Assembly: GCA_004565275.1 (NCBI GenBank) | Contig: SDOX01000002.1 | Location: forward strand, 2,867-43,658 | Reading direction: 5' to 3' | Length of the DNA: 40,792 nt | Source of the DNA: Nannochloropsis salina CCMP1776 | Taxonomy: Eukaryota; Sar; Eustigmatophyceae; Eustigmatales; Monodopsidaceae | Shown: positions 33,866-40,792 of the stretch, in pieces | Numbering within the stretch: the stretch's first letter is position 1 | Layout of the letters: each line of letters opens with the position of its first letter | Notes under the pieces: generated by a model | Told to the model about the DNA's origin: nothing | Seen by the model: the letters and a program-made list of their open reading frames with translations, nothing else | The model's database searches: none | Program-made: the position numbers and the translations under genes

Positions 33866-35633
33866 CAGGCGTGTCACATGGATAAAGATATTTACAATCG
33901 ACCGCGAGGTCCAACGTGGAAGGAAACCAGGCAGAGCCTTGCCGCCGGCACAGTCTTCGCTTGCCTGGAGCTGCGCCTCCTCCCCCTCCCTCCTCCCCCG
34001 CCCTTCCCCTTGCTGCTGTCGCTGCTTTAGCCAGTGCTGCTGCACCTCCTTGCTGCTTGCAAATGGTTGTAAAATGTGCATTTAGCCGGACGAGAACGTC
34101 ACAGGGTGGCATTTTCCCCACCTTGTCCTCTTGTCCTCCCTCCCTCCCTCCCTCCCTCCCTCTCCTTCCTCCCTCCCTTCCTCGCGTTTCTTCCTCCCTT
34201 GCCTTGCTACCCCCGCAACAGCCCTGCCTTTCCCCGCCCCTCCCTCACTTCCTCCCTCACGCCTTTACCTGACTCTCCTGATCGCGCCCTTCGCCCACGT
34301 CTCTGTCGTGCGAGCAACCACTTGCCCCACCGCCACCACATCCGCTCGTGTCGGCCTCTGTTGAGAGAAAGCTACCCGGATTTTGAGGGCCTGCTGCTTC
34401 GTCCAGCTCGACACTGCGTCCGCGTCTGAGGGAAGGGCGGAAGGCAGGCAGGGAGGGAGGGAGGGAGGGAGGGAGGGGGGGGAGGGAGGGGAGGGAGGGG
34501 AGGGAGGGACATCGTTAGGAGGCAAGCAGGTTGTACCAGGGTCCTCTGTCTCCCTCCAACCCTCCCTCTTCCACCCTGCCCTCCCTTGCTCGCTCTCCCC
34601 TCTCTGCCTCACCCAATGTCGCCAGCGTCTCCTGCCCTCGCCGCCACCGGCCTTTCCATCGACGCACCACCGCCCCTAGTCCATGTGATGGTTTAGGACC
34701 CCGCGTCATCCGACGGACTCTTCGTTGGGTGCCTGTGGACCGGTTGCTTTGCACATGCTCTTCCACTCCGTTGGCTTGCGGGCTGGCAAAATGCACCACG
34801 TAGGAGCGCGGAGGGCCTTCATCAGTGGCGTGGGCGCCGTGCGGGCGGTGGGTACGAGGGGGGTGGGCAGACTCTCCGGGAGGAGAAGGACAAGGGGGGG
34901 CAGGCGGAGAAACGAGGAGAAGCGCATGGGTTTTCCCGCACCGCCATTCCCGTTCCAAAAGAAGCTGGGCTTGTGGTCCATATTCAAATTCGTTGCCCCA
35001 TTCGTCCAGGTACATCCAGCAGAACATCGTGGTGATGGGGCCAGAAGGAGGGGGCGGAAGGTCCTGAACCTCCTTGACCACATCGCACCATCCACCGGGG
35101 GAAGAAGAGAGAGTAGAGGGGGCTTGACGGGACGGAGACAAGGGCTCGGTCGGTGCCGTGGCAGGTAATGCATGGCTTTGGGACGCATGGATGGAGCATA
35201 AGGGAGGAATTTCAGGGAGGTCATCCAGCATATCCCACGTCGCTTCCTCCTCCCCTTCGGTCTTGATTTCCTCTTCTCCACCGCATGGGACCCCTCCATG
35301 ATCCGTGGTGCCTTCATCCGGCCCAGGCCAGAGGGGATTCTGCGTTAATGAGGATGGTTCCCCTGGAAGCAAGGACGGGCGCTGGATGGAAAGAGGACGC
35401 TGGTCGTCGTCAATGACCACCGTATCCTCCTCTCCCTCCTCTCTTCCCTCCATTCCCTCCATTCCCTCCATCCCTCCGGCCATTCCTTGCGTCTGAACCT
35501 CTTCCCTGCTTCTCCCCCGGTGGCTTTCCACAAGGCCCGACCATCCCCTCCCCTCCTCGCTTATGCCAGCCCTCTCGACTCGCTGCTTCAGCTCGAAGCC
35601 TGAGTCCACTGCAGACAGAGAGGGATCATTCAT
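33866..35633 (-). CDS. WWE-domain protein, ends incomplete
   Basis: Exons from the 5' side: 34613-35633 (phase 1 out), 34269-34425, 33866-34055; phases agree. Residues about 202-309 match a WWE domain: CWMYLDEWGNEFEYGP, an LLLEREW segment, SYVVHF, then QSNRSTGTQRRVRR, the last being the characteristic N-x-x-TG-x-x-R-x-VRR ending. An insertion of about 30 Pro/His-rich residues splits the domain. WWE domains bind iso-ADP-ribose of poly(ADP-ribose) or occur in ubiquitin ligases; which applies here is unknown. The N-terminal 200 residues are acidic and disordered, with a GMEGMEGMEG repeat; no RING, HECT, PARP or UIM domain was recognised. The third exon is Gln/Lys/Arg-rich. The start ATG at 35633 may be internal, since the frame stays open upstream to about 35674 behind an acceptor. 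The 3' exon is unresolved. Confidence 0.72.
34447..34508 (-). repeat. (GGGA)n tract before WWE exon 34269-34425
   Basis: Perfect GGGA units followed by GGGGA variants; CCCT in the transcript, about 20 bases upstream of the acceptor at 34426-34427. Confidence 0.9.
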
Positions 35634-36147
35634 TGCCTTAGGGACCCCTACCTGGACAATGAGCGCATAAATTCTGTAGATCGTGCGGAAGGAGGGGAAA
35701 TGTCAAAGAACACTCTGGTCCTCATGGCTTGTGGTATCCACTGCTTGAGCCTCTTGAGCTATTGTTACAAGCCTTCCGTCCAAAAAGAATAAATCTCATT
35801 CAATGATGTCTTGAAAGTGTATTCTTGTGCACGGTTTCCCCCGCGCACATCTACATAATCTTGGCGCATAAAACTTCTCAGAAGGAACGGGGGCCCTTGA
35901 AGTACTAGAACGTCGCTTTTGGGCGAGGCTAAGTGACGAGTCTTCGCCTTAGGTAAATCGACAGGCGTTTGTTGTGTGCCGCAACAAGTAATACCAAAGC
36001 ATGTCCTACCACGTAGAAACTTTACCTCGATGGTTTCTCTGTTGCACTTGTTTTGCATATGGTTCATAAACAATGCATTCTTCCATGTGTGGAAGCGTCA
36101 ACCTCCCCGTTCCTCTTCTCTGGCCTTATTTCAACTTGTAACACTGC
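35634..36147. promoter_or_regulatory. Divergent intergenic region between WWE and FKBP-MsrA genes
   Basis: About 510 bases separating two divergent genes. It should contain both promoters, and possibly a 5' exon of the WWE gene near 35640-35740. No recognisable regulatory motif; no CCCT tract. Confidence 0.5.
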
Positions 36148-38975
36148 ATGCTGCCCACTGTTTCCTCAAGCAGGATGTCAGGATGGGCTGTAGCGATTAT
36201 TTTGCTTCCCACTTACGGCTTTGCTTTCTTTCGAAACGCCCCCTTCGTGCCTTCTACTCCACGCTCCTTCTCCCTCGCCACGAGACTCAGCACTGCCAAG
36301 GCCTCTCCCGGGGATGTCGCGACAATCGACCTTTCTATAATGCTTGAGGACGGCACCGCCATGCCGGCTGATTTTGATACAGGTATATGCCTGGCCAAAA
36401 TCGATGATTGGTCGTTCATGGTGTACATTCTTTTAAAGCCGCTCGGGGCATGACTAACAAAGCCAGAGCTTTGAGGACTGAGTAAAAAGAGGCGTGTCTC
36501 AGGTTTAATTTTTTCCGTTCTTGGGGATTGAAATTCATCGTGCAGTACGAATGAGCATGCAACTATGTATGACATCGGTCTCACGTGGGACTTACAATTT
36601 ATCGCGTCCCTTCCCCAGGGTCACAGGTACGCTTTCGCCTCGGTCATGGAGGACTGCCTCCTTACGTGCACGCCGCCGTGGAAGGAATGCACGTCCAAGA
36701 AAGAAGAACACGATCAGTGCCACCGGACGAGGCGTACGGGCCTTACTATCCGGAGCTGGCCGCGGATATTCCTGCGGAAAACACACCTCCAGGGATGAAA
36801 GTGGGCGATAAGGTGCGTCGAGGGTGAGGATGGAAAGGTACGGGGCCATGAATGATGCAATTGAAGTGCCCGCGGCGTTTCGATAGAGACCGACAGGGCG
36901 GTAAAGGGAAAAAGTCACCAGTGGGCGGGACGATCCAAAGAAGAGAAGGAGCGTGTGATCCGGTCAGAAAGGAAGGGCGGCGTCGAGGCGGAGCCTGATG
37001 GGATTCACGCCAACCCCCCCCCCTTTTACTTCCCTCCGTCTGCCCTCCTCCCCGCCCTTTTCCTGCCCTTAGGTCAAACTCACCAACGGCTTGACAGCCC
37101 GGGTCACCCGGCACGACCCCGCCCAAGGACTTTTCAGCCTCGACGGCAACCATCCTTTCGCCGGGCGCACCCTCTCGCTCTCCCTGCTCCTCCACGACCT
37201 GATGCCTGCGGACAGCCCCTGCTTTGCGATGGTGCATCTGGCAGCCGGGTGCTTCTGGGGTCTGGAACTAGCCTTCCAGCGGCTCCCAGGGGTGGTCGCC
37301 ACGGCGGCAGGGTACACGCACGGAGGCACGAGAGGGGAGGGGGGGGAACGGCGGGCGCCGACGTACAGCGAGGTGTGCAGCGGGCGCACGGGCTATGTCG
37401 AGGCGGTGGAGGTGCTATTCGATGAGGGAGTGGTCTCTTTCGAGAAGATCTTGGAGGTTAGGGCGGGAGGAGGGAGGGGCCAGGGCGAGCTCCCTTTCAA
37501 GGCCCCCTGTGCGTCTTTCATTCGCAGCGTGCACCCGCAGCTTGCTTCACGAGACACTAAATTGACTTGTTGCCCGGTTGTTTCCTATATATTCACTGAA
37601 ACCTCATTGTGCCCGCTGCAACTTATCCCCCATCTGTTTTTTTTTCGTTGACAAATGTGTGTTTTTCGGGATGTAAAATTGGGCCCTACAGGTCTTTTGG
37701 AACCGTCATGACCCCACCCAGCTCAACGGCCAAGGCAACGATCTGGGTGAGAATGGAAGGGAGTGTGGCGAACAGGCAGGGAACAACGTGAGAGAACTTC
37801 TGGGACGTCAAGGAGAGAAGCAGTGGATCACCTTTACGGTCCAGGGTTCCCAAGGCGTTCTCATTTCCCCATTCTCTTGCCCCTCCCTTTGTCTCCTTAC
37901 GGGTACCTCCCCCCCACAGGCACACAATACCGGGGAGGCATCTATTACACTTCCGACGCGCAGAAGCGGGCGGCTGAGGAGAGTAAGGCTCGGTGAGTGT
38001 GGGAAGGGATGCGAGGCAGAGGTGGGAAGGAGAGCATCAAGAGGGAGGAGAAGAGAGTGAAGAAGGAAGGCATTAGGCCCGTGGAGATCGAAAAATCTTA
38101 TCCAGAGGCTCTTTCTTGTAGGTTGGAAGCATCGGGACTTTACGACAAACCTATTGTGACGGAAATTTTGCCAGCCGACATTTTCTATGCGGCCGAGGTA
38201 CATAAAGGGGGAGCACCCCAAGGGTTTCGTAGGGTAGACTCGAAAGGGGAGAAGAAGGCGACGCGAAGGATGGGATTTGCGTGCGGGATGGGCGAGCAGC
38301 GGGTGGGAGGGAAGGGTGTGGAGACGAGGAGGAGGGATAGGAGGAAGAGGCAAGAGAGCTCGAGGAAGGTGGGGATAAGCGGCGTACCCTCCTTTCTGAT
38401 TTTTACATTGGGAGAGGGAGGTTATAGCTGATCAGATTCTCTGCTCCTTTCCTCCCTTCTCCTTCCCTTTCCACCCTCTCACTATGATCTTATACCATGG
38501 CCCCCTCCTCGCCGCCATATCTTTAATCTTCCTCAGGAATATCACCTTCAGTGAGTAGCTGCACCCATCCCTATCCATCTTTCCCGCCTGTGCTTTGGTC
38601 CTGATGACTATGAAACTCAACCATTTCTCACTCATTGCACGTTCTGCATGTTTGCCACCACTTAACAACGCCTTTTGTTGGTGGGGGAAGAATCTTTGAG
38701 ATTCAGCTCGCTGTGCCCCTCCTGTCTTTCACGACCACAAAAGATTCAAACAGATTACCGTGACGGGAAAAAAGCCACACTCACCGCGTGCATCTCGATA
38801 GAGAGACGGACAAAGAAGGGAACAAAGACTGTCAGACTTCATCTCACGCTGAGAAAGTAAACGATGTCTGATCCTCTCTCAATGTGCACGTCACTCATAC
38901 TACCGCAGATACCTCATGAAAAATGGGCAAAGCGCCAAGACGAACGATCCTGCCCCCATCCGGTGCTACGGATAG
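36148..38975 (+). CDS. SlyD-type FKBP fused to peptide methionine sulfoxide reductase A, plastid-targeted
   Basis: Exons 36148-36382, 36619-36812, 37073-37456, 37692-37746, 37920-37992, 38122-38197, 38537-38550, 38909-38975; 1098 nt, 365 residues. Residues 1-30 form a hydrophobic signal ending GFAFFRNAP, resembling a bipartite plastid signal (Phe after Ala). Residues about 57-185 are an FKBP prolyl isomerase of SlyD kind (DLSIMLEDG, AVEGM, PPDEAYGPYYPE, GMKVGDK, SLDGNHPFAGRTL). Residues about 197-365 are MsrA: GCFWG with the catalytic Cys near 203, PTYSEVCSGRTGYVEAVEV, FWNRHDPTQLN, GTQYRGGIYY, AAEEYHLQYL, and a C-terminal CYG that could supply a resolving Cys. MsrA reduces methionine-S-sulfoxide; FKBP isomerises X-Pro bonds. 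The two domains meet within one exon (37073-37456), so the fusion is not a gene-model artefact of joining neighbours. A second ATG at 36175 is an alternative start. Confidence 0.92.
38537..38550 (+). other. 14-nt micro-exon of the FKBP-MsrA gene
   Basis: Flanked by CCTCAG and GTGAGT, it encodes the conserved EYHL of MsrA (GAA TAT CAC CTT CA). If unspliced at its end, the frame stops at once with CAG TGA, so inclusion and correct joining to 38909 are required for the C terminus. Confidence 0.8.
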
Positions 38976-39549: not shown

Positions 39550-40792
39550 TCATTTCTTGCTTCGGTAGGTAGTTCTTTTCACCGCGGTCACGATGTCATC
39601 GATCTGAGGGAGGGCAGCCTTCTCCAAGTTGATGGCGTACGGCATGGGCACATCGGCGCCTAGAGGGAGGGGCAGAGGGAGGGAGGAAGGGAGGGAGGGA
39701 GGGAGGGAGGGAGGGGCCGAGGAGGAGGGGAGGGGAGGGAGGGGCCGAGAGAAGGAGGGAGGGAGGGAGAAAGGGAGGGAGGGAGGGGAGGAGTGAAGGG
39801 AAGCGAGGGAGTGAAGGCGTTGATCTTGCACTCAATCAATACCATGCTTCATCCGCTAATGCAATGCCCCTTCTTATTAATGATAGTTGCCCTCCGTCCC
39901 TCTCTCCGTCTTTCTCCCTCCCTTCCTCCCTCCTTCGCACCCGTGACTCGCTCGGGCGGTGCGTCCAGGTAGTCAAACGCTTCACTCTCCATCACCAGCG
40001 AACAAAGCTCTGCGCCCAAACCTGAGGGAGAAAGGGAGGAAGGAATGAAGGAATGAAGGAAGGGAGGGAGGGAGGGAGGGAGGGAGGGAGGGGAGAGGCG
40101 TCAAGGCGGTTGTCTGTCTTATGGACCTCTCTTCCTCGACACGGCGAAATTAAATTTCTCCCTCTTCCCTCCCCTTCCTTCTTCCCTTCCTTCCTTCCTC
40201 CCCTTCCTCCCTCTCTCACCTTCTTTCTCGAGGACCTTCGCCGCTTCCAGCGAGAAGCCGACCATGCGAGAGAAAGTGACAATGGACACATCGGTGCCCG
40301 CACGCTCGATCTGAGGGGGAAAAAGGCGGGAAGGAAGGAGGGAGGGAGGGAGGGAGGGAGGGAGGGAGGGAAGAAGGTTGTCGACCGTGAAGCATCTAGC
40401 TACATGAGAAATAAAAATGGCGATAGGAAAGGAGAAATGGAGGGAGGAAGGGAGGGAGGGAGAGGAGGGAAGGAGGGAGGGAGGGAGGGAAGGAGGCCAC
40501 GCACCTTAGCTTTGCCAATAGGAAGCACGAAGTCGTCCCGTTGAGCCTCGTCCGAGAACGGGAATGAAACGCCCTGGTGTAACGGAAATTCAAAAATGGG
40601 ATCAACGTCAATTCAAACGTCGAGTCGATCCATGAAAGCAGATGAAAATGGAGAGAAGAGAAAGTCCCCCCGCCCTCCCTCCCTCCCTCCCTGTTCCTCC
40701 CCCCCGCCCAGTCTTTCTTACGTAGAGCAGCTCGTTTTCCAGCACAATGACCGGGTTGTTGTCCCGAATGGCCGCTTTCATCAGGCCCTTGG
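39550..40792 (-). CDS. PDHB: Pyruvate dehydrogenase E1 component subunit beta, partial
   Basis: E1 (alpha2-beta2, thiamine diphosphate) decarboxylates pyruvate and acetylates the E2 lipoyl groups. Exons: 40722-40792 (continues off the right edge), 40505-40573, 40220-40310, 39941-40021, 39550-39659, phases consistent. Motifs: [70 protein letters not shown]. Compared with the family, about 40 residues are missing between KVLEKEG and LGAELC, the part that normally reads roughly INLRxIRPLD through GWPQxGVG in the transketolase C-terminal domain. No exon for it is visible in the intron 40022-40219. Whether the enzyme is mitochondrial or plastidial cannot be told since the N terminus is outside the window. 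Confidence 0.93.
40060..40092 (-). repeat. (GGGA)n tract in the E1-beta intron 40022-40219
   Basis: Eight GGGA units, CCCT in the transcript, about 40 bases upstream of the acceptor of exon 39941-40021. Comparable tracts at 40338-40372 and 40440-40492 lie in the next intron upstream. Confidence 0.9.

Follow-up and report, generated by a model that had tools for sequence, protein, structure and literature searches.

A predicted gene joining an FKBP domain to methionine sulfoxide reductase A behind a plastid-type presequence in Nannochloropsis salina

In Pfam usage, the term rotamase usually denotes the parvulin family. The nearest precedent for linking methionine sulfoxide reductase A (MsrA) to a prolyl isomerase-type domain is alfalfa MsMsrA7, which the available part of its description presents as a gene model of seven exons encoding 340 amino acids, with PMSR and rotamase domains, a signal peptide, a transmembrane stretch and a predicted location in the endoplasmic reticulum (ER); the authors of that paper liken the rotamase part to ROF (FKBP) genes (PMC10253413). 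Compared by description rather than by sequence, MsMsrA7 resembles the fusion reported here in joining these two kinds of domain, but differs in its predicted ER location and transmembrane stretch, where the algal fusion has a plastid-type presequence. In Emiliania huxleyi, the accessible portion of the source describes another algal domain addition to MsrA, in which the partner is a glutathione transferase (GST-MSRA, both selenoproteins; PMC7539508). For Thalassiosira, Msr and FKBP are named as separate proteins in the part of the text available (PMC5599023). In Mariprofundus ferrooxydans, one slyD copy is placed close to msrAB in the available section of the report (PMC10490939), an independent hint that both activities cooperate.

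The locus analyzed here lies in a 40,792-nucleotide stretch of DNA from Nannochloropsis salina CCMP1776 (the window). As the sequence-only reading had proposed, it was confirmed to be one gene with FKBP and MsrA in one predicted frame. The gene comprises eight in-frame exons on the plus strand (36175-38975; Table 1), and all seven introns (129-358 nt) have GT...AG ends. The spliced frame of 1071 nt, including the stop codon, encodes 356 residues from the ATG at 36175 or 365 residues from the ATG at 36148; the shorter version is preferred because A is found at -3 of the former and T at -3 of the latter. Exon 2 ends at 36814 and 36813 were rejected since they break the frame, which the end at 36812 keeps. 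In the product, the presequence is followed by an FKBP domain with the SlyD/SlpA insert-in-flap and then by a complete MsrA. A domain search of the 365-residue version detected both Pfam profiles above their cut-offs, with PMSR at residues 197-352 (E 1.7e-55; 187.9 bits against a curated cut-off of 23.7) and FKBP_C (PF00254) at residues 50-120 (E 1.2e-10; 42 bits against 21.1). The MsrA model TIGR00401 scored 191.1 bits against a cut-off of 108.1, starting at residue 188 of 356. Chance could hardly produce a profile match that spans eight in-frame exons.

The end of the FKBP domain with DGNHPFAG and the MsrA active site both fall within exon 3 in one open frame, and the link between the halves is therefore direct, in agreement with the earlier observation that the insert-in-flap and GCFWG share this exon. 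The frame used is free of stops throughout the 384 nt of exon 3, and each of the five other frames contains one to four. Read-through from exon 2 into intron 2 adds four codons (VRRG) before a stop, and read-through from exon 3 into intron 3 meets its first in-frame stop ending at 37651. Given these predicted splice sites, any product with the complete FKBP domain must also carry the beginning of MsrA. The inter-domain linker is about eight residues long (ADSPCFAM), since the alignment with Escherichia coli SlpA stops at residue 179 (138 + 41) and TIGR00401 starts at 188. The 14-nt microexon may escape automatic gene models.

Table 1. Features of the fusion gene, in positions of the window
Feature	Position	Strand	Content
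Exon 1	36175..36382 (alternative start ATG 36148)	+	Presequence (MSGWAVAIILLPTYGFA, then FFRNAPF) and FKBP start
Exon 2	36619..36812	+	FKBP core and first portion of insert-in-flap
Exon 3	37073..37456	+	Remainder of insert-in-flap (DGNHPFAG), last FKBP strand, linker, MsrA start: GCFWG (Cys194), Tyr232, Cys236, Glu244
Exon 4	37692..37746	+	MsrA VFWNRHDPTQLNGQGND (Asp279)
Exon 5	37920..37992	+	MsrA TQYRGG (Tyr284)
Exon 6	38122..38197	+	MsrA core
Exon 7 (14-nt microexon)	38537..38550	+	GAATATCACCTTCA; required for conserved EYHxQYL
Exon 8	38909..38975	+	MsrA C-terminus PIRCYG with candidate resolving Cys354; stop TAG
Internal in-frame ATG (Met187)	37229..37231	+	Directly before MsrA core; G at -3, G at +4

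Two further loci were noted in the window. On the minus strand at 39849-40792, exons resemble by eye a pyruvate dehydrogenase E1 beta-type gene; among the pieces scanned, one matched Transketolase_C just over the cut-off (E 6.6e-6), one fell below it (E 7.9e-5) and one gave no match. Upstream of the fusion gene and divergent to it, a 395-residue open frame on the minus strand (34515-35702) yielded only a weak, sub-threshold match to WWE (E 0.0039).

Among solved structures, the MsrA half was closest to poplar MsrA (2j89; E 5.5e-49), to which it aligned up to the last residue, and with which it shares a full MsrA domain, the catalytic residues and the C-terminal PIRCYG. In E. coli MsrA, the catalytic residues are Cys51, Phe52, Trp53, Tyr82, Glu94, Asp129 and Tyr134. 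Equivalents of all of these are present in the fusion and are identical in 23 of 23 aligned sequences, and by this comparison the MsrA half looks intact. The candidate resolving residues are Cys354 in the tail and Cys236. The fusion differs from the poplar enzyme in its FKBP domain in front, in a seven-residue Gly/Arg-rich insertion (GYTHGGTRGEGGERRAPTY) in the loop before Tyr232, found in none of the 22 other sequences, and in its tail, which reads TNDPAPIRCYG against GCNDPIRCYG in poplar, with one Cys of the plant-type pair (354) present and the first absent. The loop insertion could disturb the active site.

Elsewhere in the genome, three further MsrA loci (C72, C99 and C8) and two MsrB loci were found. 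A phase-1 intron in the Gly codon before TQYR, ahead of exon 5, is common in place and phase to the fusion gene, C72 and C99; similarly, a phase-0 intron between AE and (E/T)YH, ahead of exon 7, is common in place and phase to the fusion gene and C8. In a midpoint-rooted tree of 23 MsrA sequences, the fusion grouped with the three paralogues and poplar MsrA at a modest local support of 0.83, and pairwise identity to the fusion places a bacterial MsrA (L043; 59.7%) no farther away than the paralogues (53.5-57.3%). On account of the shared introns and the tree grouping, the sequence comparison says that the MsrA half derives from the alga's own MsrA family.

The insert-in-flap of SlyD and SlpA binds unfolded chains, and SlyD ends in a His-rich metal-binding C-terminal tail. 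The nearest solved relatives of the FKBP half were the E. coli SlpA entries 2m2a (E 1.1e-6) and 4dt4 (E 1.7e-6), ahead of the SlyD entries, and the alignment with 2m2a covered residues 9-138 of 140, the whole domain with the insert included. Like E. coli SlpA/FkpB, the FKBP half has, along the entire domain, the FKBP fold with insert-in-flap and NHPxAG, but it is joined to MsrA, its site residues are further changed and it has no stand-alone copy in the genome, where a search for a second copy of this domain gave no match at E up to 1. The FKBP_C profile gave 14 exon matches elsewhere in the genome. The designation SlyD-type holds in the broad sense, with the insert-in-flap and NHPxAG present in whole-domain alignments, but is doubtful in the narrow one, as the NCBIfam model for SlyD (NF008008) scored 14.8 bits where its cut-off is 174. 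The FkpB/SlpA model (NF011676) scored higher, at 29.3 bits, but likewise below its cut-off of 125, so that NCBIfam ranks the two in the same order as the solved structures. The SlyD-type His-rich tail is absent, and MsrA stands in its place. By these alignments, the FKBP half is closer to SlpA/FkpB than to SlyD.

Plastid-targeted proteins of heterokonts begin with a signal peptide, followed by a Phe at the cut and then a transit stretch. Judged by eye, the N-terminus of the fusion is signal peptide-like up to FFRNAPF. Similar presequences were seen by eye in two LHC genes of the same genome (MRVIALLSLASMASA-FIAPTP and MRVAAALIATLATASA-FLAPAS) and in the C99 MsrA (MRTTSLL...GVRA-FQYP), and the pattern common to these N-termini is a signal peptide-like stretch with Phe after the expected cut (A-F). 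For one LHC protein, the best match among solved structures was to fucoxanthin chlorophyll protein entries, which we take to be those of diatoms; this match places the host among the ochrophyte algae. The likeness of the presequences is in keeping with the earlier description of the N-terminus as plastid-type, and a plastid location of the fusion protein may be inferred from it. Several LHC matches are clustered at G000:C6:829578-834272, two of them with equal scores in opposite orientation (829578- and 831985+). The stand-alone MsrA at G000:C99:302820-303451 (L002, L004), with the plastid-type presequence MRTTSLLASATVIGVASKGVRAFQYP, is a natural control for the fusion.

To look for other FKBP-MsrA fusions, the mature fusion (315 residues) was used as a query against bacterial genomes taken by the phyla of L017, L019 and L020. 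Matches were obtained in 337 of 398 genomes of the first phylum at 1e-30, and at 1e-36 in 52 of 299 genomes of the second and 105 of 288 of the third. Among the bacterial matches listed, none starts before query residue 105 of 315. Because a separate weak FKBP piece would stay hidden under such strict E-limits, 16 of the long open frames listed were scanned for domains; 13 contained MsrB, three were MsrA alone and none had an FKBP domain. Bacterial MsrA/MsrB fusions resemble the algal fusion in carrying a second protein-repair domain on MsrA, but the partner is SelR (MsrB), not FKBP. One of the 13 frames with MsrB (L058:378-1823, genome G904) strings together SOUL haem-binding, MsrB and MsrA domains, in that order.

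The fusion matched 1082 plasmid and 26 phage records, none of either at 80% coverage. A Halarchaeum plasmid match (H1) with an apparent coverage of 79% was rejected as a stretched alignment, the upstream gene being on the opposite strand. Also rejected as a fusion was a 358-residue FKBP of Sinorhizobium meliloti, in which Pfam found FKBP_C alone in the 327 residues scanned. This insert-in-flap FKBP (L053:543-1619, plasmid pC) continues into a long C-terminal part, the scanned residues of which match no Pfam family, and its gene sits between a molybdopterin-binding gene and a sulfite oxidase gene. Scans with six short patterns, which reach close relatives only, gave four loci in genome contigs, all MsrA frames without FKBP by eye, and no loci in viral contigs. 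Within the limits just given, the searches of 985 bacterial genomes, 72,556 plasmid records and 50,697 phage records turned up no FKBP-MsrA fusion; relatives would be expected in eukaryotes.

Among the listed titles and abstract openings of open-licence PMC papers, none showed a plastid FKBP-MsrA fusion; the full texts of further papers and subscription journals may hold one. The earlier remark that the pairing was not known as a plastid enzyme stands to that extent, but the alfalfa gene model, with its predicted ER location, argues that the pairing of MsrA with a prolyl isomerase-type domain is not without precedent, as far as its available description goes (PMC10253413).

The explanation that we favor, with somewhat better than even confidence, is that a SlpA/SlyD-like FKBP and a plant-type MsrA are imported together into the plastid, where the FKBP half holds clients beside the reductase, and that the alga's own MsrA gene gained the FKBP at its 5' end. 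A nuclear ochrophyte gene would thereby supply a fusion to the plastid stroma. The MsrA half would reduce methionine S-sulfoxide in stromal proteins through the usual sulfenic-acid cycle at Cys194, which would be resolved by Cys354 or Cys236 and then probably recycled by thioredoxin. The FKBP half, its isomerase site weak or lost and its insert-in-flap retained, would keep damaged or unfolded clients next to the reductase by means of the short tether of about eight residues; this client holding and its benefit we infer. The gene itself would have originated from one copy of the alga's own MsrA gene through the acquisition of an FKBP unit at the 5' end. Since the stand-alone C99 MsrA has a plastid-type presequence, the fusion would not be needed merely to supply the plastid with MsrA. 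Points that count against the favored explanation are this same C99 enzyme, the modest tree support, the nearness of the bacterial L043, the loop insertion and the missing first tail Cys.

Alternatively, the protein could be a bifunctional enzyme, with clients refolded by prolyl isomerase activity of the FKBP half while MsrA repairs them. The isomerase-site residues of FKBP12 are Tyr26, Asp37, Ile56, Trp59 and Tyr82. In an alignment of 10 sequences (this domain, three of the alga's own FKBPs, four bacterial loci, SlpA and an FKBP12-SlyD chimera), the Tyr26 position is occupied by Leu53 (Tyr or Phe in nine of the nine others), the Asp37 position by Pro64 (Asp or Glu in seven of nine) and the Ile56 position by Pro83 (Ile, Leu, Ala or Ser in the others, and Pro in none of the nine), all of which argue against an active enzyme. 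Val86 at the Trp59 position has little weight, as Trp is found in just two of the nine others. Where an active isomerase would have its residue set or close stand-ins, this domain reads Leu, Pro, Pro, Val and Tyr. In favor of activity, the domain retains Tyr109 at the Tyr82 position, along with Phe75 and Leu82; two aspartates, Asp66 and Asp68, are found close to where Asp37 has been lost; SlpA, too, differs from FKBP12 at a number of these sites; and the alfalfa MsrA gene model, in its available description, also has a prolyl isomerase-type domain (PMC10253413). Because hallmark positions have been lost (Tyr26 to Leu, Asp37 to Pro and Ile56 to Pro), isomerase activity appears doubtful, with weak activity or none expected, and we consider a bifunctional enzyme unlikely. 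An FKBP domain is present, as the sequence-only reading had it, but its name of prolyl isomerase is in doubt with these three positions changed, and the coupling of refolding with methionine sulfoxide repair that was built on it is put forward here as a hypothesis.

The eroded isomerase site would suit an FKBP half that merely caps or steadies the N-terminus of MsrA without contacting substrate, and MsrA is commonly found fused to other domains (MsrB in 13 of the 16 long bacterial frames; GST in E. huxleyi, according to the accessible portion of PMC7539508). The insert-in-flap with DGNHPFAG has been kept, however, while the isomerase site has not, and such a passenger role seems to us just as improbable as bifunctionality. 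Far less probable, to the point of being very unlikely, is that a promoter or start in or just before exon 3 yields a stand-alone cytosolic MsrA from Met187, beside the fusion or instead of it. The place of this codon immediately before the MsrA core and its sequence context would permit such a product; against it, several in-frame ATGs lie upstream, C72 already provides an MsrA without an evident presequence (by eye), and the splice sites found yield no FKBP-only counterpart.

It is possible, though on balance we would not expect it, that the fusion serves the chloroplast as a dedicated repair machine, with a former prolyl isomerase now acting as the client-holding arm and giving MsrA access to unfolded or freshly imported stromal proteins that are poorly accessible to the free enzyme. 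If the favored explanation is true, isomerase-type chaperones and MsrA would have come together independently in two more cases, the alfalfa model and the bacterial slyD near msrAB, as far as their available descriptions go. The finding touches the question of how buried or misfolded sites become accessible to methionine sulfoxide reductases, and a natural chaperone-MsrA fusion, with its stand-alone paralogues as controls, would permit a direct test of that access.
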